From a virus: a stretch of DNA of 41,867 nt. The DNA is taken from positions 1 through 41,867 of the IMG/VR virus record IMGVR_UViG_3300025617_000045. The stretch is one strand, 5' to 3'. Of this stretch, positions 14,760-39,645 are shown one piece after another; within the stretch, counting starts at the first letter, position 1; each line of letters begins with the position of its first letter. A program made the translations under genes and the position numbers. The notes beneath the pieces were generated by a model, which was given only the letters and a program-made list of their open reading frames with translations, had not been told where the DNA came from and ran no database searches.

Positions 14760-15361
14760 TAAACCTCTTCCAGGCTCAAAGATATATTCCAGAAGTCGTG
14801 AGTCGCTCGACCTCGTGCAACTATGTCATACTGAAAGTCATCAAAAAACACTTCAATTATCTCGTTGTATCTATCTAGCTTATTGTAGTTGTCATCCGTA
14901 AAGTTTGTCAACTTGTCGTAAGCTAAGAAAACCCAGAAGGAGCCTTGGTGATTCTCGTACCAGTTTAAAAGATCTACACCCCCAGCCCCACCATCGGCTG
15001 TGTAAACTAAATCGTTAGCTCCTACGATCAAGGTTCCTGACTCATCAGGGTTTAGCTGTGCAGAAGATGCTCTAGATGGCAGGTTGTCCCAAGAGGTAGA
15101 AATAGAGAGCTTGTCTGCAACGTGGTAAGACCTCATTCTTCCGTTAACCGTTCTAACTTTAGTTTCAATTCTGTTTGGCTTAAACTGAATTTGTTTTCTG
15201 TTATGGTCGGAAACTAAAATAAAATCTTCAAACTCTTGCCCCTGTGGAATGTAGTAACCATCCTGCAGAATTCCAGGGTTTTCTGAAAACAGCATGGCCT
15301 GTGGCCTGCCAGCATTTAGCATTCTGCGATTATTTAAATAATCTTTGTCAATGTCTGTCAA
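14759..15361 (-). CDS. distal tail protein-like minor tail protein
   Basis: 200 residues, directly after the tape measure and before the hub gene, the usual place of the distal tail (Dit-like) protein linking tube and tip. The text alternates strands and loops (FILVSDHNRKQIQFKPNRIE, YHVADKLSISTSWDNLP). It ends with a domain typical of tail-ring proteins (ATHDFWNISLSLEEV). The start is TTG at 15361, overlapping the tape measure stop by four bases (TTGA). The assignment rests on position and secondary-structure impression. Confidence 0.65.
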   Translation of the reverse strand: MTDIDKDYLNNRRMLNAGRPQAMLFSENPGILQDGYYIPQGQEFEDFILVSDHNRKQIQFKPNRIETKVRTVNGRMRSYHVADKLSISTSWDNLPSRASSAQLNPDESGTLIVGANDLVYTADGGAGGVDLLNWYENHQGSFWVFLAYDKLTNFTDDNYNKLDRYNEIIEVFFDDFQYDIVARGRATHDFWNISLSLEEV

Positions 15362-18300
15362 AGCTTGTTGCCCCTAATTCTTTGGTTTTCTACACCCTTA
15401 ATCTGAGTCATTACAGCTCTTGCAATTCTGTTTGGATCTGAGTCAGACTTAACGTTAACCGCTAAGTTATAATTATACACGGAACTGTCGCTGTATGTTC
15501 CGTTGTTAATGTCTTTAAGCTTATCTACCCCGATTTTATTTACGGCTGGGCGACGAACAACAAACTCGCCTGGAGTAAGGAGTGCTGGGATGGTGTCTGA
15601 GCCCATAGATAGACCACCCATTGCCATCTTAATTAATCCACCGTTTGCTGGAGTCAATACTGAGTCTAGGCCTCTGTTTTCATTATAGAATGTGGTCCAG
15701 TGCTTACCAGCTTCTGCTGCTAGCTGTCCAAGAGTTTTTCCTGTAGAAGTGTCTACCCAGCCAGACTTTCCTGCTGGGGCAGACCCACCGCCACCACCGC
15801 TGCTAGAACGTCTTGCTGGCTTTTTCTTATTTGCGGGATTTGCTGGATCGTTGGGGAATGCCTTGAAGTAATCTTCATCTTTTTCTCCAGTTTCCATAAA
15901 TCTTGCAAGAGCAGCAAATCTCTTAGTTGCGTCAACAAGATCTTCCATGTTTAAGTATGCCAGTCTAGCTTTGTCTGCAACGTTTTCAAACTCTTGTCTT
16001 GACTGACCGTTTAGCTCTAGCTGCTCAATAGCCAAGTCTCTCTGCAGCTCTGCCAGTCTTATTCTTTCTTGTGCTGGCTCAAGCATACCCTCTTCAATTT
16101 CAAACATCTGCTGTTCTAGATTTTTAACTTGTTCTTCTAGCTGGTCTCTCGTCATCCCAGTTCGGCCAGTTACTGCCCCCAACTCTGCCTCTCTAGATCT
16201 TTCAAGCATATCTTGCTGAGAGGCTTGAGCGTCGGCTGCCTGCTTTGCCCTTAGCTCTGAAGCTGCCTTAGCTGCGGCTGCAATGTCTCCTCTAGAAAGA
16301 GCATCTGCAATGTCTAGCTGTGCCTGTTGCTGCTCTGCAATTTTTTGATTAGTATCTGCAATTTCTTCTAAGGCTTCAGAACGCTTATCGTATCTCTCGT
16401 TAATTTCATCTTCTTTAAGAGAAATTCTTTCAAGCTCTGCGTTGTAATCATCCAGCTTATACTCAATAGCTGCAAGTTGATTTTCTGCATCTTTAACTAG
16501 GTCGTTGTCATCAGCCATCTTCATATCATACTGAAGGTTAACGACTGCCTCTTTTTTATCAAAGTAATCCTGAATAGCTGATAGCTCATCTTCCATTGGA
16601 ACGTCAGCTTCACCTTTTGCAATAGATACCGCAACGTCCATATCTGCTTGAGCCTGTGCATTCTTAAGTGCTTGCTCCAAAGCCTTGGGGTCAATGTTGG
16701 GTTCCAGGACCAGGTTTTGCAAATCTTTATTGCTTAAGATAGAGCCAATCTGAGCCTCGCTTAACTTAGATCTGTTTGCATTAATGTAGTCTAGAATCTT
16801 AGCCTGGTTGGAGAACTCTTTGTTCATGTCTCTAACAGCTTCGCTAATGCGCTTCTTTCTTTCTTCCTCTTCGTTAATCTTTTCAAGCTCTTCCATCTTG
16901 GCCTGAGCTGCCATAGCGGCTTCTGCTGCTGCCTGGATTTCTGCAGAACTCTTAGCTGTGGCAATAGCTGCTGCAAAAGCGGTATTCTTAACTGCGTTAT
17001 AGGCTACCTCGTAGCTAGCGCCAGCTGCAGTAAGTCTGTCAAGTGCTGTGATCTGATTTCCAACACTGGCGGTAATGTTTTCTTGCTCATCTATAAAGTT
17101 TCCTATTTCTACAACATTAAGAGCGTCTTGGACAGCCTGACCGGCAGCAGTCATTCCTGTGATGTTGCCCATAGCGTCAAAGTTGAACAGCTGCTTTTTC
17201 TGCTTCTCCCACTCGTCTGGGTCCATTCCCAATAGCTGCTCTGCAAAACCTTCAGATGCTCCAGCGTTTCTTAGCTGAGATGAAAGACCTCTAACACTTC
17301 TTGCACCAGTCTTACCAAAAGCTACAATTGCGCTCAGAGATGACTTAAATCCTTTGGTGACCTTGGTCTGTGCCGAGGAAACATTTCTTAGGGACTTTAC
17401 GGTTTTATCTAAGAAGGATGTTGGGGTAGAACCTCCCCCGCCACTTCGTCTTGTCACCGATGGGTTGCCTTCTAGCTCGCCTATCTCCGCTCTTAAATCT
17501 GCCTCTTCTTTTAGCTTTAAGATTAGGGCATCCGTGGCGTCTGAGTTGCCGTTCTTTGCGTCTGTGCTTTGAGCAATGGCAAATGCCTCTGAAAGAGCAG
17601 CATCTGCAGATATCTGGTATGCAATTGCCTGCCCCTCTTCTTGTTCAACTAGTCCAGCAGTTGCCGCGGTAGCAGCTTCATAGGTTGAAACCTGCTCTTG
17701 CATAGTTGAAATTCTAGATTCTAGGTCAGCCTCTGCCTGCTGTGCATTTATTTGATCCTGTAGCGTTGACTGCTCTTGCATTGCCGCAATAAATGACTCT
17801 GTGGCCAGAGTGTTTCCGTTTTGCTGGTCTACCAGCTGGGCTGAAGCCCACTGTTGTCTAAGGGTCTCATCTGCAGCTATTTTTTGTGCAAAGGCTGCCT
17901 TGTCTTGAATTTCATTGTTTGACGATATCGCATCAGACACTTCGTCATAGGTATCGATCTGATTCTGCAGTTCTTCATTTTGTTTTTCAGCTTCTGAGAC
18001 AAAGTTTTCTGTAGACTCTACAGCATCGTCTACTTCTTTCTGTGCTTCAGCCTGCTCTTTTAGTCGAGCGGTCTTCTTCTCAATTGCAGTTATGACGTTG
18101 TTTGCTTGCTCAATTTCTTTGGAGGATGCCCCCGCAGCAGAGCCAGCCCTCAGAAGGTTCATCTGGCCCTCAGTAACATTTGTTCCTGCTGCCCTAGCAG
18201 ACATAACGGTGCTAGCGGCATCCAGACCACCGGCAGTATTAAAGTCTAAGAATTCCTGAACATCTGCACCAATACCCTCGAAGCCTGCGGCTTCCATATC

Positions 18301-21300
18301 CTTTGCCATTTGTGCAACTAGCAAGCTAGCGGAAGCAAGACCGCTAGCATCTGTGGATGCAATATCCTGAATAGTTTCTCCAACACCAGCTATTGCAGCG
18401 TTATACTCATCAATAGTAATTAGGCCATCATTCATTTGCTGGTTAGCATCTAGGATCAGGGAGGAGAGGGCTCCAGCGGCAAGCAGTCTGTCCGCTTCTG
18501 TCTCTGAGTCTCCTACGCTTCCGATGTATCCAGAAACACCACCTCCAGCGGTTGTGGAGGCTCCAGCTATAACTCTTTCTTCTGATATGTTCTTTGTTGA
18601 GTTAGCAAAAGCATCTGCGTATGAACGGGCAGCCTCGGCAGCAGAATCTTCTGCCGTTGCAATTGATATGCTACTAAAGTCTAGGTTTACGTCTGTGCGA
18701 CCAGCCTCTACAAGCAGGGCATTTACAATTCCTGCAATCGCCTCTTCCGATGCCCCTGCTGTTTGCAAGGTTACCGCCATAGAGGTAAGGGCCTGCTCAG
18801 ATGCCTTGACAGAAGAGTCTTTGAGGGCGTCAATGGTTCCCTTAAATTCTTTCTTAAAGTCTTCACTATCTAGTAGCTGATCCTGAATTCCCTTGGCGGA
18901 CTCTTGAGTTTCTTGGTCTCCAGCCCTTGCCCCAGTACCCTCGGCACCAACACCACCAACTCCACCAAGCTGTCTTTCTTTGAGATCTGTTCCTAGAATT
19001 TCGTTTAGGGTGCTTAGCTTGTCTCCAGAAAGCTTCGCGGCATCTCCCAACCCTTCTACCTTTGCTTTTTGATCCTTCATTACCTTTGCAAGCAAAGCAA
19101 CGCCTCCAGCCAACAAGGCAAACCCAGCTATAACCGCCCCCACTGGTCCCAACAAGGCAAGGATTCCTCTAAACAGTCCGGCGGCTACAGACTTAATACC
19201 TGCAAAAGCTTTTGAAAGCATCGAACCAGATTTTGCTATTTTTACATTGGCTGCGGCCGTTACTCCAGCAGCTATCGAATCGTCTATCCTTGTTCCAATT
19301 GAAGCAATCGTTTCAGCATTAAGCATTTGCATTGCAAAAGTTAAACCGGTAATGGCGCTAGTCAGGGGGAACAGCTTGCCAGCTAGATCTCCAAGTGGGC
19401 CCTCTACCATAGATAGTCCACCAATCAAAGAGCTTATTCCGATACCGACTGTCCCCAGCATGTTTGACATACCGGCAAGATTTTTAGCTGCATTGCCAAC
19501 CCTTGTGCCAAATGAAGCGGTTGTTTTAGAAGCCTTAAGTATTTCTCCGTTAAGAATAGAGTAGTTTATTGGCTGGCCTGGTGTGGTTACCCCAGCTGTT
19601 TGAGCCCTGCCTTTTCCGCCCCTAGTCCCTGGTGTTGATCCTTCTGCTGGGAAGTTGTTAAAGCCACTAGTTGCTGACTGTGCAAGCTGCTGACCCGCCT
19701 GCTGAGCATCGTCAACCTGCCCCTCCATCCCAAGGATGGCGCCCCGACCAATATTTGCACCAACCTCTTCTGCAACTTTTGATGGAGATGCCTGTCTAGT
19801 AGCTTTCCTTGCCCCACTGGTAATTGATTTCTGTGCAGCTATGATTAGCTGAGCACCCAGTTTTTCAAAGTCTTGACCGGTAGAAGCAATTGCCTGCCTT
19901 GCAGAGTCACCAGCTATTGGGTTTTTTCTTCCCTTATAGGTTCTAGTTATAAAGGTAGAGGTATCTAAGCCAGCCTGCTTTCTTCTTGCTCGGGCGGGGT
20001 CGCTAGTTGCATAACTCTTCCCGGCCATAAATGCTCTTAGCCTGTCTGTGCCCTCTGCTGCAGGTGCCGCTCCAAACTCGTTTGCGGTCTCAATCATTCT
20101 TGCCTTTAGCAACATCCTTGCGTCACTGAGGGCTTGCTCTTCTGAAACCCCTTCCTGAATCTGTCTTGCATAAAGTTCTTCTGCTTGCTCAACTCGTCTT
20201 CCGGCCTCAATTTCTGCCTCGTCCTGAGCCATTCCTTCTTTTGCGACTAATCCAAAAGCAATAGCCTGTCTAGCTCTTTCTTTGTCAAAGGATAGCTTCG
20301 TTCTTGCTTGATCATTAGATTGTGACAAGACGATCCTGGCTTCTTGTGCTTCTGCAAGAAGCCTCTCGATTTCCTGAGTGTGTCTCTGATAAGACTCAGT
20401 GTTTTGACTTTTTGCCTGAAGCAAAACAGATTCTTGCTCGAAAAGCTCATCCATGTTTCCGTAAGCACCGGCAATCCCTGTTGCCTCGTACATGGCATTT
20501 CGTTCTGCAGTCTCTGGCACAGTTGTTCCACTAAAGGATGCCCCGCCTGCCATTAACAAATCTCCAGACTGGGTTAGCTCATGAAGCATTCCTTCAGTCT
20601 TGTCAATGGTAATACCCAGGCCGTCAGCATTTTCTGTAACCCTGTAGAGGGTTGTTTCAAAAGTGTATCCAAGATCAGCAAGTCTCTGGATTACGCTGGA
20701 AAGCTGTCTTGGGTCAAATCCAGCGACGTGAGATGCAACAGGAGAGCCTGTTCCTGTTGTAAGACCTTTGGCATATCCAGGAATAGAGCCATCGATCATG
20801 GCATTGATTAGTGGGCCGTATTTGTCTGCCATTGCAGCAGGGATTACCGCTTCACCAGGAGCCAGCATGGCTGGCTGAATGTCTCCAGCACCCTTTGGTC
20901 CTGGGACAGTTACAACGCCATCCTTATATCCAGGAACCTTTTTGCCTTTAGCAAATCCTGGTGCTGCAGAAGATGTTGTCCTCATTGGAATTCCCAAAGA
21001 GCTTCTCTGAGCGGCGACTAGTTTTTGATACTCTGTAGTCAGCCTCTGTACGGCGGTAGCCTCTGAGGTAAATGTTTGTGCTAGGTTAGCGTGAGACTGG
21101 TTTAGGGAAGATGCTACAGAAGCTGCCTCTAGCTGCTCCTGGCTCATATACTGAGTCTGCCCCGCCAGCTCTGTTGACTGTCCACGAAGCTTTTGGAATA
21201 CGGTTTGCAGCCCAAGGAACATCTTCATGATGTTTGCTATACCGTTAGCTAACAGACCCACAGTCATCAATAGGACTGGTCCAACTGCCCCTACAATACC

Positions 21301-22944
21301 CAGCAAGGCGACAATAAACCCTTTGGCACCATCATTAAGATTATTAAAAGCATTAAGAACCTTGGCCCCAAACTCAACTATTGGGGTTACAAGCTTTAGG
21401 AACGACTCTCCAATTGGAGCTAGTGCAGCCTGGAATTGCTCTACGGCAGATCTAAACTTCGTAGCCGCTGACTCTTCAACTCTTCCAAGCTCTTTGCTTG
21501 CCAGGGCTCCTAGCTCCGAAGCATTAGTATTGATTAACTCTAGAACTGTAGCTGCCTGGCTACCGTCGTCCATAATGTTATTAAACAGGGCAGACATTCT
21601 TGCGAACTGGAACTTACCAAAGAGTCTTTCGATCGCTCTTGATTTTTCCAGTGGGTCTAGCTGTTCGAGTGCTGCACCTAGGTCAAGAACTGTTTGTCTT
21701 AGATTGCCAGCATTGCTTTCAACAATGTTTACGACGTCAATGCCGTAGCCCATAAGCTCTTCTCTAGCTCTTGCCGTTGGGTTTACCAATCTACCAAGGG
21801 ATGTCTTCAGAGCGTTAGCACCCTGAGAGGCCTCGATGCCACCCTCACGCATTGCTGTCAGGAAGAAGGCTAAGTCTTCTACGTCTCCACCTAGCTGTGC
21901 GACAACGCTACCTGCTCTTGGGACAGCTTCGTTAAAGTCCTGAATAGATAGAATCGTCTGGTTTTCTGCAGCATTCAGGAAGTTAATCTTGCCAGTAAGA
22001 TCTTCTGCGGCAACGCCAAAAGCGTTAGTAAGTGATATAGTTGTATTCAGAGCTTCCTCTTGCTCCATACCACCCAAAACTGCAAGCCTTGTTGCCTCTG
22101 TAACCTGTGCAGTTAGGTCTGCCCCCATCATACCCATCTGGGCAACGCTAGCAGCTAGACCAATAGTCTTTTCTACTGCAACGCCAAACTTGGTAAACTC
22201 CAAGCCAAGATTCTTCATGTCATCGAAGGCTTCGTTTGCCTGCTGTGGTGTTGTGAATAGGTCTCCGTATACACGCTTGAATCTAATTGCTTGCTCTTCT
22301 AGATCCATAAAGGTTTTGGCAGCCAGACCACCGAAAATAGTCAAGGGGATTGTAAAACCAACCATGAGCTGACGACCAGCCCACTGAGTGTTTTTACCCC
22401 AGTTAAGAAGGTTGGTTGATCCCTGTCTTAGAAGCTGGTTAAGTATCTGTTGCTTCTGAGCTGCCATTGCAGTTCTAGTAGCAAGGTTGTCCATGTCTAG
22501 AGCAAGTGGTCTAACGGCAATAGCCTTAATAGCTCCGTTGGCATCACGGCCCATCTTAACGTACTGGGTCTGGATGGTCTTTACTCTTTCACGAGCAACC
22601 TTTTCAATAGTATCAAATTCACCTTTGAATAAGCTACCAAACTTTTTAGTGGATGCCCCCGCATAGCGGAAGGTCTGCCCCATAGTGAGCTTGTTCTTTT
22701 CAAGAGCATTTGTAAAAGATTCTGTTGTACTTTTGATTCTTGTCATGGAAGCAGAAAACTGGCCAGTAGCATTGATACTACTGACCAGCTCTTGCTGCAT
22801 ACCTGCCGCAGCAGCAGCGGCTTTGCCGCCGCCTCTTGCGATCTCAGCATTAAAAACAGATATTTGACGCTGAAGATTTTTCAGCTGAGCCAATGCCGCT
22901 GTGGCGTCAATATTAACGCCAATATTAGCCTGTACGTCAGCCAT
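15358..22944 (-). CDS. tail tape measure protein
   Basis: 2528 residues; sets tail length and is delivered with the DNA. The N-terminal part has coiled-coil character and matches the TP901-type tape measure core at about 200-500 (EEQAIRFKRVYGDLF, then LGGMEQEEALNTTISLTNAF). Hydrophobic segments lie at about 535-573, 1151-1215 and 1251-1290 and could insert into the host membrane. Two P-x-L-x-PGE-x-V boxes, common in tape measures, lie near residues 690 and 2455. Two repeats of about 71 residues lie around 1655-1822, and a long charged coiled coil fills about 1950-2350. At 0.15 nm per residue the tail would be about 380 nm. AAGGGAG precedes the ATG. No lysozyme or peptidase motif is seen. Confidence 0.97.
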   Translation of the reverse strand: MADVQANIGVNIDATAALAQLKNLQRQISVFNAEIARGGGKAAAAAAGMQQELVSSINATGQFSASMTRIKSTTESFTNALEKNKLTMGQTFRYAGASTKKFGSLFKGEFDTIEKVARERVKTIQTQYVKMGRDANGAIKAIAVRPLALDMDNLATRTAMAAQKQQILNQLLRQGSTNLLNWGKNTQWAGRQLMVGFTIPLTIFGGLAAKTFMDLEEQAIRFKRVYGDLFTTPQQANEAFDDMKNLGLEFTKFGVAVEKTIGLAASVAQMGMMGADLTAQVTEATRLAVLGGMEQEEALNTTISLTNAFGVAAEDLTGKINFLNAAENQTILSIQDFNEAVPRAGSVVAQLGGDVEDLAFFLTAMREGGIEASQGANALKTSLGRLVNPTARAREELMGYGIDVVNIVESNAGNLRQTVLDLGAALEQLDPLEKSRAIERLFGKFQFARMSALFNNIMDDGSQAATVLELINTNASELGALASKELGRVEESAATKFRSAVEQFQAALAPIGESFLKLVTPIVEFGAKVLNAFNNLNDGAKGFIVALLGIVGAVGPVLLMTVGLLANGIANIMKMFLGLQTVFQKLRGQSTELAGQTQYMSQEQLEAASVASSLNQSHANLAQTFTSEATAVQRLTTEYQKLVAAQRSSLGIPMRTTSSAAPGFAKGKKVPGYKDGVVTVPGPKGAGDIQPAMLAPGEAVIPAAMADKYGPLINAMIDGSIPGYAKGLTTGTGSPVASHVAGFDPRQLSSVIQRLADLGYTFETTLYRVTENADGLGITIDKTEGMLHELTQSGDLLMAGGASFSGTTVPETAERNAMYEATGIAGAYGNMDELFEQESVLLQAKSQNTESYQRHTQEIERLLAEAQEARIVLSQSNDQARTKLSFDKERARQAIAFGLVAKEGMAQDEAEIEAGRRVEQAEELYARQIQEGVSEEQALSDARMLLKARMIETANEFGAAPAAEGTDRLRAFMAGKSYATSDPARARRKQAGLDTSTFITRTYKGRKNPIAGDSARQAIASTGQDFEKLGAQLIIAAQKSITSGARKATRQASPSKVAEEVGANIGRGAILGMEGQVDDAQQAGQQLAQSATSGFNNFPAEGSTPGTRGGKGRAQTAGVTTPGQPINYSILNGEILKASKTTASFGTRVGNAAKNLAGMSNMLGTVGIGISSLIGGLSMVEGPLGDLAGKLFPLTSAITGLTFAMQMLNAETIASIGTRIDDSIAAGVTAAANVKIAKSGSMLSKAFAGIKSVAAGLFRGILALLGPVGAVIAGFALLAGGVALLAKVMKDQKAKVEGLGDAAKLSGDKLSTLNEILGTDLKERQLGGVGGVGAEGTGARAGDQETQESAKGIQDQLLDSEDFKKEFKGTIDALKDSSVKASEQALTSMAVTLQTAGASEEAIAGIVNALLVEAGRTDVNLDFSSISIATAEDSAAEAARSYADAFANSTKNISEERVIAGASTTAGGGVSGYIGSVGDSETEADRLLAAGALSSLILDANQQMNDGLITIDEYNAAIAGVGETIQDIASTDASGLASASLLVAQMAKDMEAAGFEGIGADVQEFLDFNTAGGLDAASTVMSARAAGTNVTEGQMNLLRAGSAAGASSKEIEQANNVITAIEKKTARLKEQAEAQKEVDDAVESTENFVSEAEKQNEELQNQIDTYDEVSDAISSNNEIQDKAAFAQKIAADETLRQQWASAQLVDQQNGNTLATESFIAAMQEQSTLQDQINAQQAEADLESRISTMQEQVSTYEAATAATAGLVEQEEGQAIAYQISADAALSEAFAIAQSTDAKNGNSDATDALILKLKEEADLRAEIGELEGNPSVTRRSGGGGSTPTSFLDKTVKSLRNVSSAQTKVTKGFKSSLSAIVAFGKTGARSVRGLSSQLRNAGASEGFAEQLLGMDPDEWEKQKKQLFNFDAMGNITGMTAAGQAVQDALNVVEIGNFIDEQENITASVGNQITALDRLTAAGASYEVAYNAVKNTAFAAAIATAKSSAEIQAAAEAAMAAQAKMEELEKINEEEERKKRISEAVRDMNKEFSNQAKILDYINANRSKLSEAQIGSILSNKDLQNLVLEPNIDPKALEQALKNAQAQADMDVAVSIAKGEADVPMEDELSAIQDYFDKKEAVVNLQYDMKMADDNDLVKDAENQLAAIEYKLDDYNAELERISLKEDEINERYDKRSEALEEIADTNQKIAEQQQAQLDIADALSRGDIAAAAKAASELRAKQAADAQASQQDMLERSREAELGAVTGRTGMTRDQLEEQVKNLEQQMFEIEEGMLEPAQERIRLAELQRDLAIEQLELNGQSRQEFENVADKARLAYLNMEDLVDATKRFAALARFMETGEKDEDYFKAFPNDPANPANKKKPARRSSSGGGGGSAPAGKSGWVDTSTGKTLGQLAAEAGKHWTTFYNENRGLDSVLTPANGGLIKMAMGGLSMGSDTIPALLTPGEFVVRRPAVNKIGVDKLKDINNGTYSDSSVYNYNLAVNVKSDSDPNRIARAVMTQIKGVENQRIRGNKL

Positions 22945-22965: not shown

Positions 22966-23274
22966 TTAGCTAATAAGAGAATCTGTCAGTCTCACTCCAG
23001 ATGCCTCTTCAACAATTTGATATACCGTTGGTAGATCAAGAAGTTCTTCTAGTGCGTTGATGTCGTCTGCGATCTCTGGCTTGTACTGCTTCATAGCGAT
23101 CTGTACACACTCCATCAAAATGCCAATTGCTTTTTCGTTGTTGTCTGATGCTCCTTGGATACCTTCAAATTTTGACATAAAGGTTCTCAACAGAGAAATC
23201 TTTAGTGGTCTAATCTTAATCTTTGTTCCATCAACTAGAACGATCTCTTTTGCTTCATTTACTGTTGTTGCCAT
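22966..23274 (-). CDS. tail assembly chaperone, short paralogue
   Basis: 102 residues. It aligns along its whole length with the N-terminal half of the upstream 232-residue gene: both start MAT-V, then [I/N]xLVDGT-[K/E]-I, PLKI, L-x-x-FM, A-I-x-[I/V]-L-x-E-C, MKQ-x-[K/Y]-P-x-I, DLP-x-VY, and a final 'G-[V/I]-[R/K]-[L/I]'. It lacks the C-terminal domain of the long form. By position (just before the tape measure) and by this relation it corresponds to gpG-type chaperones. I see no slippery heptamer joining it to another reading frame. An extended -10 promoter lies in the gap upstream, so it may be transcribed separately. Confidence 0.8.
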   Translation of the reverse strand: MATTVNEAKEIVLVDGTKIKIRPLKISLLRTFMSKFEGIQGASDNNEKAIGILMECVQIAMKQYKPEIADDINALEELLDLPTVYQIVEEASGVRLTDSLIS

Positions 23275-23307
23275 TTTTATTCCTGTCTCCTTTTATTAGG
23301 CTACTAT

Positions 23308-23316
23308 ATTATAACA
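23308..23316 (-). promoter_or_regulatory. extended -10 promoter before the short chaperone gene
   Basis: Minus strand reads TGT-TATAAT at 23316-23308. A weak -35-like GTGACA lies 19 bases upstream, inside the end of the long chaperone gene. Transcription would begin near 23301 and give a leader of about 27 bases with a GGAG/AGGA ribosome binding site. Confidence 0.55.
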
Positions 23317-23327
23317 TAGAAGGGGTA

Positions 23328-24026
23328 TTACTTGTCACGCAAATCCTCGTAACCAAGCCCCATCCCAATACCAAAACCATTCTGCTGGGCCTTTACCCCT
23401 TGGAATGATGCTATGTCGTTTGGATTGTCTGTAGTACCACCACTAAACACTCTGGCTTTCATTTCTTCCCAAGCATTCTTATTTGATTGTCCAGACTCCT
23501 TATCAAGGTCTACCCCCTGGATTGCAGCCAAGAACTTCTTTTCTTGGTAGTCTAGCTCTCTACCTCTTTCAATGACCGCCAGCAGCTCTGACATGGTCAT
23601 AGAAATCTCTAGTGCTTCAAAGTTTTCCCAGGCACCGACAAGAAAAACCTCTGCCTCTAGCGATGCTAGATCTAAGTCTTTCCAGCTATTCTTGTCTTCT
23701 GACTCACCCTTTGCTTGCTTTTCAATGTTATTTTTGCTATCTTTAATCTTAATTCCAGCACAGATATCTAATAGCTTATAAACATTGGGCAGGTCCATCT
23801 GATCCTCTAGCTCTTCCCTTGTTTTTATTGTTGGGTAGAACTGTTTCATACACACTACTGCACACTCAGTAAGCACAGCTATTGCCTGATCATCGTTTTT
23901 AGTAAGCTGAATTAAATCAAACACATCCATAAACTCTCTTAAGTACTTAATCTTAAGAGGGGATGCCTCAATCTCTGTACCGTCAACAAGATTGATGTTG
24001 CCGAACTCATATACCCGCGTTGCCAT
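23328..24026 (-). CDS. tail assembly chaperone, long paralogue
   Basis: 232 residues. Residues 1-95 are the same domain as the downstream 102-residue gene. A charged linker (about 96-120) leads to a second, helical domain (ENFEALEISMTMSELLAVIE; ELDYQEKKFLAAIQGVDLD) of the kind normally reached only by frameshifting in gpG/gpGT pairs, and the C-terminus is glycine-rich (QQNGFGIGMGLGYEDLRDK). It therefore looks like a fixed 'GT' version made without frameshift. The ATG has no Shine-Dalgarno. An extended -10 (TGG-TACACT) ends six bases before it, so the transcript is probably leaderless, starting directly after the terminator of the major tail protein gene. Confidence 0.8.
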   Translation of the reverse strand: MATRVYEFGNINLVDGTEIEASPLKIKYLREFMDVFDLIQLTKNDDQAIAVLTECAVVCMKQFYPTIKTREELEDQMDLPNVYKLLDICAGIKIKDSKNNIEKQAKGESEDKNSWKDLDLASLEAEVFLVGAWENFEALEISMTMSELLAVIERGRELDYQEKKFLAAIQGVDLDKESGQSNKNAWEEMKARVFSGGTTDNPNDIASFQGVKAQQNGFGIGMGLGYEDLRDK

Positions 24027-24032
24027 ACAACA

Positions 24033-24041
24033 AGTGTACCA
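24033..24041 (-). promoter_or_regulatory. leaderless extended -10 promoter for the long chaperone gene
   Basis: TGG-TACACT at 24041-24033 is followed by six bases (TGTTGT) and the ATG at 24026. It directly follows the T-tract of the terminator, which leaves no room for a -35 box outside the stem. TACACT fits the relaxed TANNNT -10 of actinobacterial primary sigma factors. Confidence 0.5.
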
Positions 24042-24072
24042 AAAAAGTAATGCCCAGGCCGAAGCCTGGGCA
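24041..24072 (-). terminator. Rho-independent terminator after the major tail protein gene
   Basis: Minus-strand RNA forms a perfect nine-base-pair stem, TGCCCAGGC with GCCTGGGCA, capped by a TTCG tetraloop, followed by TTACTTTTTT. The stem lies about 22 bases after the stop codon of the major tail protein gene. The plus strand has no comparable T-run, so it acts leftwards. Confidence 0.9.
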
Positions 24073-24094
24073 CTACATTGTATTTAGTTAATAA

Positions 24095-24721
24095 CTACGA
24101 ACCAGCAGGAACGGTACGATCAACAATCTTACCGTAAGAAGCATCGTCGTTGGGGAGCAGACGGAACGAAACCTCAAACATTGTAGGTTCGTCACGCTTT
24201 GCGGATACTGTAACGTTCTCGATTGAGAGCGCACGGTAAGCCACATAGACTCGCTCTAGCTCGGACCCAATCGCACAGTCTCCGGTACCTGGACCAACTG
24301 CAACCATACCGCGCTCAACGGGACATTCTCCAATGTCACCAGCGGTTAGGTCGAGTGTGGGGTTACCGGAAACGGTGGTTAGATCGGCATCTTTACCAGC
24401 AATAGAGAAAAGCAAGTTCTCTAGAGTGGCTTCAGCAAATGCAGTGTTAAGGTTAACCTGCATACCTTGCTTGTATAGCTTAGCTACGTCGAGAAGCTGA
24501 TCTACCTGGACCTCGCCGAAGTCTGGCTGGAAGTTTAGTTCCAAACCATTCATCGTGTATCCAACGTTACGGAATGAAGCGTCATCAGACAGAGTTGATC
24601 TGTAGGATGTGCCATCCACATATGCTGGAAGGTCTACGTCAGTTAGCTCACCATCTTCGTACGTGAACAGTGCTGCTGCACCAACAATAATGTTGGCGCT
24701 AGAACCACGTGTATATGCCAT
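24095..24721 (-). CDS. major tail protein (tail tube)
   Basis: 208 residues, beta-rich. It sits between the tail terminator gene and the chaperone pair ahead of the tape measure, the standard place for the tube subunit. The N-terminus (AYTRGSSANIIVGAAALFTY) and the C-terminal strand pair (NVTVSAKRDEPTMFEVSFRL) fit tail-tube sandwiches. Its own extended -10 promoter, a leader of about 46 bases, a strong AGAAGAGGTGA ribosome binding site and a terminator just after the stop form a monocistronic, high-output unit, as expected for a protein needed in hundreds of copies. Confidence 0.85.
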   Translation of the reverse strand: MAYTRGSSANIIVGAAALFTYEDGELTDVDLPAYVDGTSYRSTLSDDASFRNVGYTMNGLELNFQPDFGEVQVDQLLDVAKLYKQGMQVNLNTAFAEATLENLLFSIAGKDADLTTVSGNPTLDLTAGDIGECPVERGMVAVGPGTGDCAIGSELERVYVAYRALSIENVTVSAKRDEPTMFEVSFRLLPNDDASYGKIVDRTVPAGS

Positions 24722-36255: not shown

Positions 36256-37050
36256 TTAAATCTTGTATATCTTGTATCTAATAATAGCAATACCTGATGC
36301 TCCAGCAGCTCCAGCTTGGTGATAGTTCTCATACCCCCCAAAGCCTGCGCCTCCACCAGAACCGGTCCTAGCCTGTCCAGCACTTGGTGCATAGTTGTCG
36401 TTTTCTCCAACAGTGGCACCTCCCCGGCCTCCGCCACCAATTCCACCATTTCCTCTGGCCCCTCTATTGGCGGTTTGACCGCTTCCACCACCACCGCCAG
36501 CAAAGTGTCCCGAAGAACCCGTTCCGGTTGCCGCTGTCCAGTCTGAAAGACTCGTGCCAGCTCCACCTGTATACCCAGATCCATCGGCCGCAGAGCCACC
36601 CGCCCCGCCTCCTCCGGTTGCATAACCTCTGAGGAATCCATTTCCAGATGTACCATCAGTATTTCCACCAGAAGCTTCGTGTCCGTTAAAGAATGAAGAG
36701 GATCCAGGGTATGCCGGAGCCATTGATTTGCCAGAGAAGTGCGGTCTGCCCTGTGCCCCAGCGCCACCACCACCAATGGTTATTGAGTACTGACCAGCCT
36801 CTAAAAATTCTTCCCCAACTAGAACTTCTCCGGCACCGCCACCTAAGCCTTTTCCGCCACCTGCTCCTCCACCAACAACCATATACTCGATTGTTCCTCT
36901 AACATCAAGAGTAAATGTTCCTGAGTTGATAAAAGTGTGATACTTGTACCCCCCGGCAACGGTAGGCTGTGTAATAACTCCACCGGAAGCTATGATTTCT
37001 CTAAAGCCTTTATTGTTTCCTCTAAACCTAAGTCCTATTTGGGGGTACAT
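36256..37050 (-). CDS. glycine-rich tail fibre / adhesin-like protein D
   Basis: 264 residues. The N-terminal part (YKYHTFINSGTFTLDVRGTI) is a beta-domain also found in the other glycine-rich genes. It is followed by a long Gly/Ala/Ser-rich region (about 60-250) and the shared C-terminal strand GIAIIRYKI. Phage adhesins of the Gp38 type form polyglycine helix bundles that bind surface receptors, and this protein has a comparable composition. The ATG has no Shine-Dalgarno; TGG-TATAAT ends six bases before it, so it is probably leaderless. Confidence 0.75.
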   Translation of the reverse strand: MYPQIGLRFRGNNKGFREIIASGGVITQPTVAGGYKYHTFINSGTFTLDVRGTIEYMVVGGGAGGGKGLGGGAGEVLVGEEFLEAGQYSITIGGGGAGAQGRPHFSGKSMAPAYPGSSSFFNGHEASGGNTDGTSGNGFLRGYATGGGGAGGSAADGSGYTGGAGTSLSDWTAATGTGSSGHFAGGGGGSGQTANRGARGNGGIGGGGRGGATVGENDNYAPSAGQARTGSGGGAGFGGYENYHQAGAAGASGIAIIRYKIYKI

Positions 37051-37076: not shown

Positions 37077-37913
37077 CTATACCGGAACTCTGATGATGGC
37101 TAGCCCCGAGCCCCCGCCATTACCGTTTGATCCACCGCCACCAGTATTTGCTAGGCCTGCAGCATTTCCTCCGCCGCCTCCTAGACCTCCCGCACTAATG
37201 CTAACTCTTCCATCGTATGCGCTGCCTGATCCTCCACCACCATAATACACTGTTCCAGAAACGTTCTGTCCTGTTGTTGTGGCCAAGCCCCAGTCTGAAT
37301 AGGCGGATGTTCCGACACCCCCAGCGCCGCTTACACTCGAGGTTGAGTTTAACCCTGCGCCTCCAGCACCACCACCGCCACCGCCGCCTTCTACATATAC
37401 CCCGTTGCCTCCAGCATTTCCATAGAATGTATTATTAAGAAGTGGGAAGCCTCCACTTTCGTAAATACTACCACCAGAACCAGATGCGCCACCCCTATCT
37501 ACTGGTCCTTGATAATTTCCGCAACCAGAACCACTACCAAAAGCAATAGCCCTGTTTTGTCCTGGGTTAGAACCTGTTCCTATGAGGGTGTCTGATCCTC
37601 TGGTATAACATGTCCCTGGACCTCCCGCAGCAACAGAAACCGGATATGTTCCAGCCTCTAAAACTATAAAGTCGCTAAATACTTGGCCAGCACCGCCACC
37701 GCCGCCACCACCGGTACCACCTCCGCCACCGCCTCCAACTAAAAGAACCTCAACCCTTCCTGATCTTTGAACAGTAAGTGTGCCGGAAGTCGTAAACGTG
37801 TGATACTCATACCCACCAGAGGTTACCACCGTACCATCAGAAGTGATAGTTGCGTCAACATCTGCTGTAGTTACCCAAGCAGTGCCGTTCCATATTTTTG
37901 CATTAGTTACCAT
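37077..37913 (-). CDS. glycine-rich tail fibre / adhesin-like protein C
   Basis: 278 residues. The N-terminal beta-domain (YEYHTFTTSGTLTVQRSGRV, then EVLLVGGGGGGG) is the same as in adhesin D. The remainder is glycine-rich, with two cysteines (about 100 and 130), and the end is GLAIIRVPV. The start is the ATG within a TAATG overlap with the linker gene, without a good Shine-Dalgarno, so coupling is likely. The first 25 residues (NAKIWNGTAWVTTADVDATI) resemble the linker repeats of the upstream gene, as if derived from it. Confidence 0.75.
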   Translation of the reverse strand: MVTNAKIWNGTAWVTTADVDATITSDGTVVTSGGYEYHTFTTSGTLTVQRSGRVEVLLVGGGGGGGTGGGGGGGAGQVFSDFIVLEAGTYPVSVAAGGPGTCYTRGSDTLIGTGSNPGQNRAIAFGSGSGCGNYQGPVDRGGASGSGGSIYESGGFPLLNNTFYGNAGGNGVYVEGGGGGGGAGGAGLNSTSSVSGAGGVGTSAYSDWGLATTTGQNVSGTVYYGGGGSGSAYDGRVSISAGGLGGGGGNAAGLANTGGGGSNGNGGGSGLAIIRVPV

Positions 37914-38817: not shown

Positions 38818-39645
38818 TTAGAATGATATCGTTCCGGTACCAGCCGTAAAGGTAATTACGGTGTCGCCATCAACTGTATCTGTGGAATATGTTAGGCCTG
38901 GAGATATTGTTGGTGTTCCGTATATGTTGCTAAACCTAACAATTACAATCCCAGACCCTCCCGCGGGTCCAGTGCCTACTTTGCCGCCGCCACCATCGCC
39001 AGTGTTTGCTGCACCCGCCACACCAGACTGATTTCCACCCTCCCCAAAGCTAGCCTGAGTTCCGGTAATGCTTGAGCTAAGTGGTGGACCAACCGTACTG
39101 CTATTAGGCGCGTCCCCACCGGCACCACCGCCGGTTCCTCCGTCACCATTGCCCCCACCGGCAGTTCCATTACCGCCTTGAAGGTCTGTCCCCACTCCAC
39201 GAGGTCGGCCACCGTCACCACCGCCGCCGCCGCAGCCCCCGTTTCGACCACCTGTGCTTCCGGCGCGACCGCCACCACCACCGCCAAGAACAGTAATTGT
39301 GCCAAAAATTGAGTCCCCACCATTGGCACCCTGTGCGCCATCTGCGGTACCGCCGCCAGCGCCGCCTGCACCAACTGTTACCGCATAAACAGATCCAGGC
39401 GTTCCTGGCAGGGGGTCGCGAGTGTCTGAATTGTCTCCAGATCTATCTGTAGCAAAGTTAGAAAAAGCTCCTCCAGCGCCTGCGCCACCGCCTAGACGAC
39501 CTCCTGTGGGACTCCCTCCACCACCACCACCACCTGCAATAGCAAAAACATAAATATCAGAGTCACCTTGTCCGAACGATGTAGACATTCTGCGATATCT
39601 AACAAAATTTGACAGAGAGCTGTTTGCCATAGAATTAACAGCCAT
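38818..39645 (-). CDS. glycine-rich tail fibre / adhesin-like protein B
   Basis: 275 residues. A short N-terminal part (SNFVRYRRMSTSFGQGDSDI) and strands lead to a long Gly-rich stretch (about 35-225). It then has GSGIVIVRFS, shared with the other adhesins, and here a C-terminal extension of about 40 residues (TYSTDTVDGDTVITFTAGTG) absent from C and D. AGGAGGG precedes the ATG by about seven bases. No terminator is visible after it. Confidence 0.75.
   Translation of the reverse strand: MAVNSMANSSLSNFVRYRRMSTSFGQGDSDIYVFAIAGGGGGGGSPTGGRLGGGAGAGGAFSNFATDRSGDNSDTRDPLPGTPGSVYAVTVGAGGAGGGTADGAQGANGGDSIFGTITVLGGGGGGRAGSTGGRNGGCGGGGGDGGRPRGVGTDLQGGNGTAGGGNGDGGTGGGAGGDAPNSSTVGPPLSSSITGTQASFGEGGNQSGVAGAANTGDGGGGKVGTGPAGGSGIVIVRFSNIYGTPTISPGLTYSTDTVDGDTVITFTAGTGTISF

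Follow-up and report, generated by a model that had tools for sequence, protein, structure and literature searches.

Does evolution guard the ribosomal slip that yields both forms of a phage tail assembly chaperone from one mRNA, or just two products in a ratio? The -1 frameshift of siphophage tail assembly chaperones is conserved (Levin 1993, Xu 2004, 2013, 2014, cited in PMC5009743), and excerpts of two reports describe chaperone frameshifting as widely conserved in long-tailed phages, though not in every genome (PMC5009743, PMC10885494). The lambda G to GT ratio is given as 30:1 in one of these excerpts (PMC5009743), and part of a further paper reports a 6–7% shift for HK97-like chaperones (PMC3711429). 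The window, by which we mean the whole 41,867-nt virus record analysed here, carries two genes at the corresponding place. Its first-pass annotation had proposed that duplication stands there in place of recoding, with a promoter before each copy that could set the ratio. The features of the locus, from upstream to downstream, are as follows:

24095–24721, minus strand: major tail protein gene (phrog_2175 'protein with Ig domain', 3.2e-31; phrog_885 major tail protein, 0.0091)
24041–24076, minus strand: intrinsic-terminator-like hairpin with an 11-bp stem and a T-run, between the major tail gene and the long gene
24033–24041, minus strand: extended -10 promoter-like element TGGTACACT, 6 nt from the ATG of the long gene; predicted leaderless start
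23328–24026, minus strand: putative long tail assembly chaperone gene, N and C domains in one frame, GT-like, 232 aa
23727–24026, minus strand: N domain of the long protein, about residues 1–100 (phrog_10504, 2e-23)
23331–23693, minus strand: C (T-like) domain of the long protein (phrog_10474, 8.5e-12; alignment with Streptomyces phage -1-frame ORFs)
23308–23316, minus strand: extended -10 promoter-like element TGTTATAAT, 33 nt from the ATG of the short gene
23281–23292, minus strand: Shine-Dalgarno region (AAGGAGACAGGA) of the short gene
22966–23274, minus strand: putative short tail assembly chaperone gene, N domain only, G-like, 102 aa (phrog_10504, 1.5e-19)
15358–22944, minus strand: tape measure protein gene (phrog_10030 tail length tape measure protein, 1.4e-80)

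The pair thus lies between the major tail gene upstream, whose product is homologous to Streptomyces phage proteins annotated 'major tail protein', and the tape measure gene downstream, which is the position of a tail assembly chaperone. Over their first ~99 residues the two proteins align with a score of 197, compared with a maximum of 55 in 1000 shuffles, and their N domains are 44% identical. The profile search that the first-pass annotation had named as a check places both proteins in one family (phrog_10504) rather than in unrelated ones, and its claim that the same N-terminal domain opens both genes holds on both grounds. A second domain confined to the long protein had also been claimed, and phrog_10474 is indeed matched by the long protein only. 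The fact that the C domain has a family of its own was a hint that it might lie in a different frame in other phages, and in the frameshifting relatives described below its homologue does sit in the -1 frame.

Homology supplies further evidence of identity. Searches with tblastn matched Streptomyces phage proteins at ~36–43% identity with E values down to 3e-33, many of them annotated as tail assembly chaperones, and the joined chaperones of Rhodococcus phages are also homologous to the pair. The two genes are predicted to give the short and long products with a common N domain that are expected of such chaperones; programmed frameshifting, which is typical of them without being universal, does not seem to be used, the C domain being in frame 0 and no slip site being conserved. 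Pfam searches with the long and short proteins returned no chaperone family, and the PHROG matches better than 1e-5 for the pair are families of 'unknown function'. AlphaFold2 models (mean pLDDT 73 for the short protein and 76 for the long, with ~90 for the long protein's N domain) have a beta hairpin followed by helices. When the N domain was compared with solved structures using VIA-align, the HK97 tail assembly chaperone gp13 (2ob9_A) ranked first, with a modest Z of 5.2 over 81 residues at 9% identity and the next chain at 3.8, although helical matches at such Z can arise by chance. The HK97 chaperone is made with frameshifting, unlike the window pair. Foldseek found no match in the PDB at E 0.001, and a sequence search of solved structures with two profiles (A4 and A1) gave nothing meaningful; viral structure models matching the pair include named tail assembly chaperones. 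Overall, three lines of evidence point to a long-tailed phage's pair of tail assembly chaperones: homology to chaperones annotated as frameshift pairs, the order of the genes and the modest HK97 fold match.

To compare the locus with its relatives, we collected loci from viral contigs (several queries, best 80 matches per query) and one MAG contig, and typed 585 loci and the window by running HMMs on every stop-to-stop frame of the plus strand. Because only the best 80 matches per query were taken, the shares of layouts among them are not population estimates, and since the same contig can recur, we counted unique unit sequences. Among the matches listed, a fused long gene followed by a short gene was found in 304 of 586 sequences, the window included (204 unique units), and an N gene followed by the C domain in an overlapping -1 frame in 269 of 586 (200 unique units). 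The other 13 were not typable: 11 were cut at the locus edge and 2 were the window's own pieces in the other orientation. One locus (L037) without a start codon near the expected place was excluded. None of the complete loci typed had the fused gene alone, and none had a frameshift pair with an extra copy. The comparison with related phages that had been suggested for this locus therefore yields two exclusive layouts.

Among the 130 records of closest cultured relatives, each with one place, 127 are Streptomyces phages and 3 are Rhodococcus phages. Stanwilliamsviridae, which are Streptomyces phages, and the Rhodococcus phages NiceHouse and Francesca have homologous N and C domains in the same gene order, but differ from the window in having a single copy with C in the -1 frame, and in an SD-led start in the five examined. 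Five Streptomyces phages examined in detail have one N gene and then the C domain in an overlapping -1 frame. In the four that could be parsed, the C homology ([ST]WEELDLA) begins before any start codon of the -1 frame; in the fifth (L101), the equivalent peptide carries a D (SWDELNLA). The annotations of Yaboi, NiceHouse and Francesca give the chaperone as one gene joined across the frameshift. Streptomyces phage Faust (L586) has two separately annotated chaperone genes, the second of only 60 nt, with unannotated C homology between them, and this annotation is probably a missed frameshift. Regarding hosts, the window has no tRNA and no plasmid match. The sole match in a genome contig (L267), in a MAG titled as a cyanobacterium, bears a frameshift unit and so says little about the host.

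Both copies appear to be maintained. Median dN/dS was 0.142 for the long N domain, 0.074 for the long C domain and 0.088 for the short protein (first 150 of 256 close pairs, with dS often near saturation), low values that point to purifying selection on long and short alike. Although the window comes from a metagenome collection, the selection on both copies and the recurrence of the layout in 303 other loci leave a negligible chance that the pair is an assembly error or a decayed gene. A different concern is that the short copy might do another job, such as binding another tail part, with the long protein alone as the working chaperone, so that the pair would not correspond to G and GT. The long and short N domains of the window differ at more than half of their positions, and the short copy is more conserved than the long N domain (mean column identity 72% compared with 58%), which is compatible with specialisation. 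However, every complete two-gene locus keeps both copies, none being long-only, and each frameshift locus can yield both kinds of product from one gene. We therefore consider a separate job for the short copy quite unlikely, and take the pair as equivalents of G and GT in what follows.

We then asked whether a slip site persists in the two-gene phages. An in-phase slippery heptamer lies in the overlap of 198 of 200 unique frameshift units, as CCCAAAC/T in 188 and AAATTTN in 10. The ten units with AAATTTN (L365, L380 and similar) carry it right after GATCC instead of CCCAAAY (GATCCAAATTTG), a switch of slip site. The two units without a heptamer in the overlap are those of Streptomyces phages Coruscant (L100) and Braelyn (L101), in which the C domain is in the -1 frame and CCCGGAA replaces the CCCAAAC/T of relatives.

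The scan of two-gene phages covered 181 unique long and 176 short genes, a smaller locus set than the 204. CCCAAAY was found in none of the 176 short genes and anywhere in just 9 of the 181 long genes. In the junction zone (codons 85–130), 126 of 181 unique long genes have no in-phase XXXYYYZ; the other 55 have some in-phase heptamer, with no site common to them. We therefore reject a conserved slip site in the long gene; its presence would, according to the first-pass annotation, have refuted the proposal. TTTTTTG/A accounts for 27 occurrences in the long-gene junction zone, mostly at ~codons 124–125 within the FLL motif of the C domain, and is not conserved; judged by sequence, such T-run heptamers could conceivably act as occasional slip sites in some long genes. 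The window's long gene contains one in-phase XXXYYYZ, AAAGGGT at 23706–23712, a heptamer that just 2 of the 181 unique long genes carry in their junction zone. The original statement that the locus has no slippery sequence is thus not literally exact, but it stands in the sense that no site is conserved across the 181 long genes.

The history of the two layouts was examined with trees. In a five-gene concatenation (major tail, three upstream genes and the N part of the tape measure; 59 phages, 1073 columns), the two-gene phages come out as a single clade (100/100), and the sister group is a clade of frameshifting L409-like phages; the two together are supported at 100/100, and the other frameshifters fall outside. 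The C-domain tree, for which a regular expression retained 397 of 404 units, agrees (two-gene phages with sister, 100/98; two-gene phages, 92/87). In L409 a single N gene carries CCCAAAC, the C domain is in the -1 frame with the same extended tail as in the two-gene phages, and the tape measure gene comes immediately next. CCCAAAC/T is common to sister and outgroup, at the same N-D-P-N position and in the same -1 phase. Given that the two-gene phages form one clade sister to frameshifters, duplication most likely replaced recoding once. The simplest reading of these sequences, leaving aside the order of duplication and branching, is that frameshifting was lost once, through duplication and in-frame fusion.

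Two trees leave some room for the opposite polarity, in which the two-gene layout is ancestral and the frameshifting of the sister clade is a reversal. In the N-domain tree, which used 34 of 54 long representatives, long copies form one clade (99/87) and short copies another (99/95), and the L409 sister groups beside the short copies instead of falling outside both (99/87), although alternatives to this placement were not rejected (p 0.35–0.41). The tree of the major tail gene alone nests the frameshifting sister inside the two-gene group (98/94), although a single two-gene clade was not rejected (p 0.229). A reversal would require the same CCCAAAC/T to have evolved again at the same N-D-P-N position and in the same phase, and the five-gene tree gives the two-gene and sister groups each as a clade; we consider it improbable. 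The exclusive layouts and the single two-gene clade beside a frameshifting sister thus favour duplication in place of recoding, as had been proposed for the window.

How might the ratio be set without a slip? We compared the start regions of 204 long and 204 short genes, 69 genes from the sister clade and 131 from the outgroup, taking four further gene sets as controls; the promoters in this comparison were called by consensus to an extended -10 element rather than from mapped start sites. A Shine-Dalgarno 4-mer precedes none of the 204 unique long genes, whereas an extended -10 box lies 3–12 nt before the start in 191 of 204 (3.9 in shuffles), at exactly 6 nt in 132, as in the window, and at 5–9 nt in 188. 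The motif as defined is absent from the other 13. Of the 181 unique long genes, 180 were scanned for a terminator-like hairpin and T-run, and 152 of these have one just upstream (3 of 180 in mononucleotide shuffles), compared with 1 of 176 short genes; in the window its T-run adjoins the -10 element. Among the 204 short genes, 203 have an SD-like 4-mer and 201 an extended -10 box 20–40 nt upstream (5.0 in shuffles). Frameshifting N genes resemble the short gene, with SD in 69/69 sisters and 131/131 outgroup members and the upstream box in 69/69 and 129/131. Long and short genes alike begin with ATG in 202 of 204 cases. According to our start calls, 99 of 131 outgroup frameshifting chaperone genes begin with TTG (64 of 69 sisters with ATG), and this weak start may be part of chaperone control in the outgroup.

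The lack of SD, the adjoining -10 box and the upstream terminator together indicate that the long gene should yield a leaderless mRNA behind the terminator, while the mRNA of the short gene should be leadered. Alternatively, duplication may have replaced recoding while the long gene is read from the upstream operon or from a leader starting elsewhere, with promoter strengths alone setting the ratio. The promoters being consensus matches, and 13 of 204 long genes lacking the motif, this version deserves some attention; but the tight 5–9 nt spacing, the uniform lack of SD, the ATG starts and the terminator all argue against it, as do the control genes of two-gene phages (major tail, tape measure and two upstream genes), which have no box within 3–12 nt (0/193, 0/194, 0/187 and 0/137). 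We consider it unlikely and favour the leaderless start. The earlier suggestion of a ratio-setting promoter before each copy fares well in part: a conserved promoter-like element fronts each gene, and its role in the ratio finds support in anatomy only. The start anatomy suggests that long and short genes differ in initiation mode, leaderless or Shine-Dalgarno, as much as in promoters. Elsewhere in the window, genes starting at 37050 and 38763 (minus strand) have an extended -10 box 4–6 nt before the ATG and no SD; they may also be leaderless, so that such starts would not be unique to the long chaperone gene. Nearby, three neighbouring proteins (36256–37050, 37077–37913 and 38818–39645, minus strand) match the glycine-rich domain PF21722 and are likely a paralogue set upstream of the packaging and head genes.

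We consider it probable that an ancestral frameshift chaperone was replaced by a duplicated long/short pair with separate starts. As the comparison suggests, one ancestral gene would have given both forms via -1 ribosomal frameshifting at CCCAAAC/T; its N domain would then have been duplicated, with an in-frame fusion joining the first copy to the C domain and the second copy left as an N domain alone with no slip site. The long gene, now the GT equivalent, would be transcribed from a promoter behind the terminator, so near the start codon that its leaderless mRNA begins there with no Shine-Dalgarno. The short gene, the G equivalent, would still be organised as in the ancestor, with promoter, leader and Shine-Dalgarno. 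The long protein would most likely be scarce and the short one plentiful, in place of the frameshift-set ratio. By homology with lambda gpG/gpGT, coating of the tape measure protein would fall to the short form, and recruitment of the major tail protein to the C domain of the long form. The window pair resembles gpG/gpGT in its position between major tail and tape measure genes, in its short and long products with a common N domain and, presumably, in its chaperone job, but differs in having two genes, an in-frame fusion, no conserved slip site, and separate predicted promoters and start modes.

Precedents for leaderless starts come from actinobacteria. Their leaderless mRNAs, as described in parts of two papers (PMC3898074, PMC4351075), likewise have a TANNNT -10 element near the start codon and no SD, and cluster O mycobacteriophage promoters are predicted to be leaderless (PMC4351075); in these accounts such mRNAs do not serve to produce two forms of a protein separately, and the leaderless start in the window is itself a prediction. 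In M. tuberculosis, one excerpt states, leaderless genes make up a quarter of those with a primary start site, and their proteins tend overall to be less abundant, though the lower expression is not provably due to translation (PMC3898074). Since the effect is not pinned on translation, the direction of the long:short ratio is a guess.

These findings bear on annotation. The authors of PRFect report 342 SEA-PHAGES genomes in which two chaperone genes are left unjoined, and regard it as a reasonable presumption that they belong together as one joined gene (PMC10885494). The two-gene clade is a case in which adjacent chaperone genes should not be joined, and neighbouring chaperone genes need not mean a missed frameshift. 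In the mostly open-access literature searched, we found no prior report of a chaperone frameshift being replaced by duplication; what is new here is that the long and short genes seem to start differently. With moderate confidence, we propose that this phage clade lost the normally conserved chaperone frameshift and now controls the ratio through duplication and a split start mode, the rare form being leaderless behind a terminator and the abundant form translated from a Shine-Dalgarno mRNA. The frameshifting sister and the two-gene clade provide a natural before-and-after experiment, with matched relatives for testing. That the clade retained both products and dropped the slip argues that selection guards the products in ratio rather than the slip itself.
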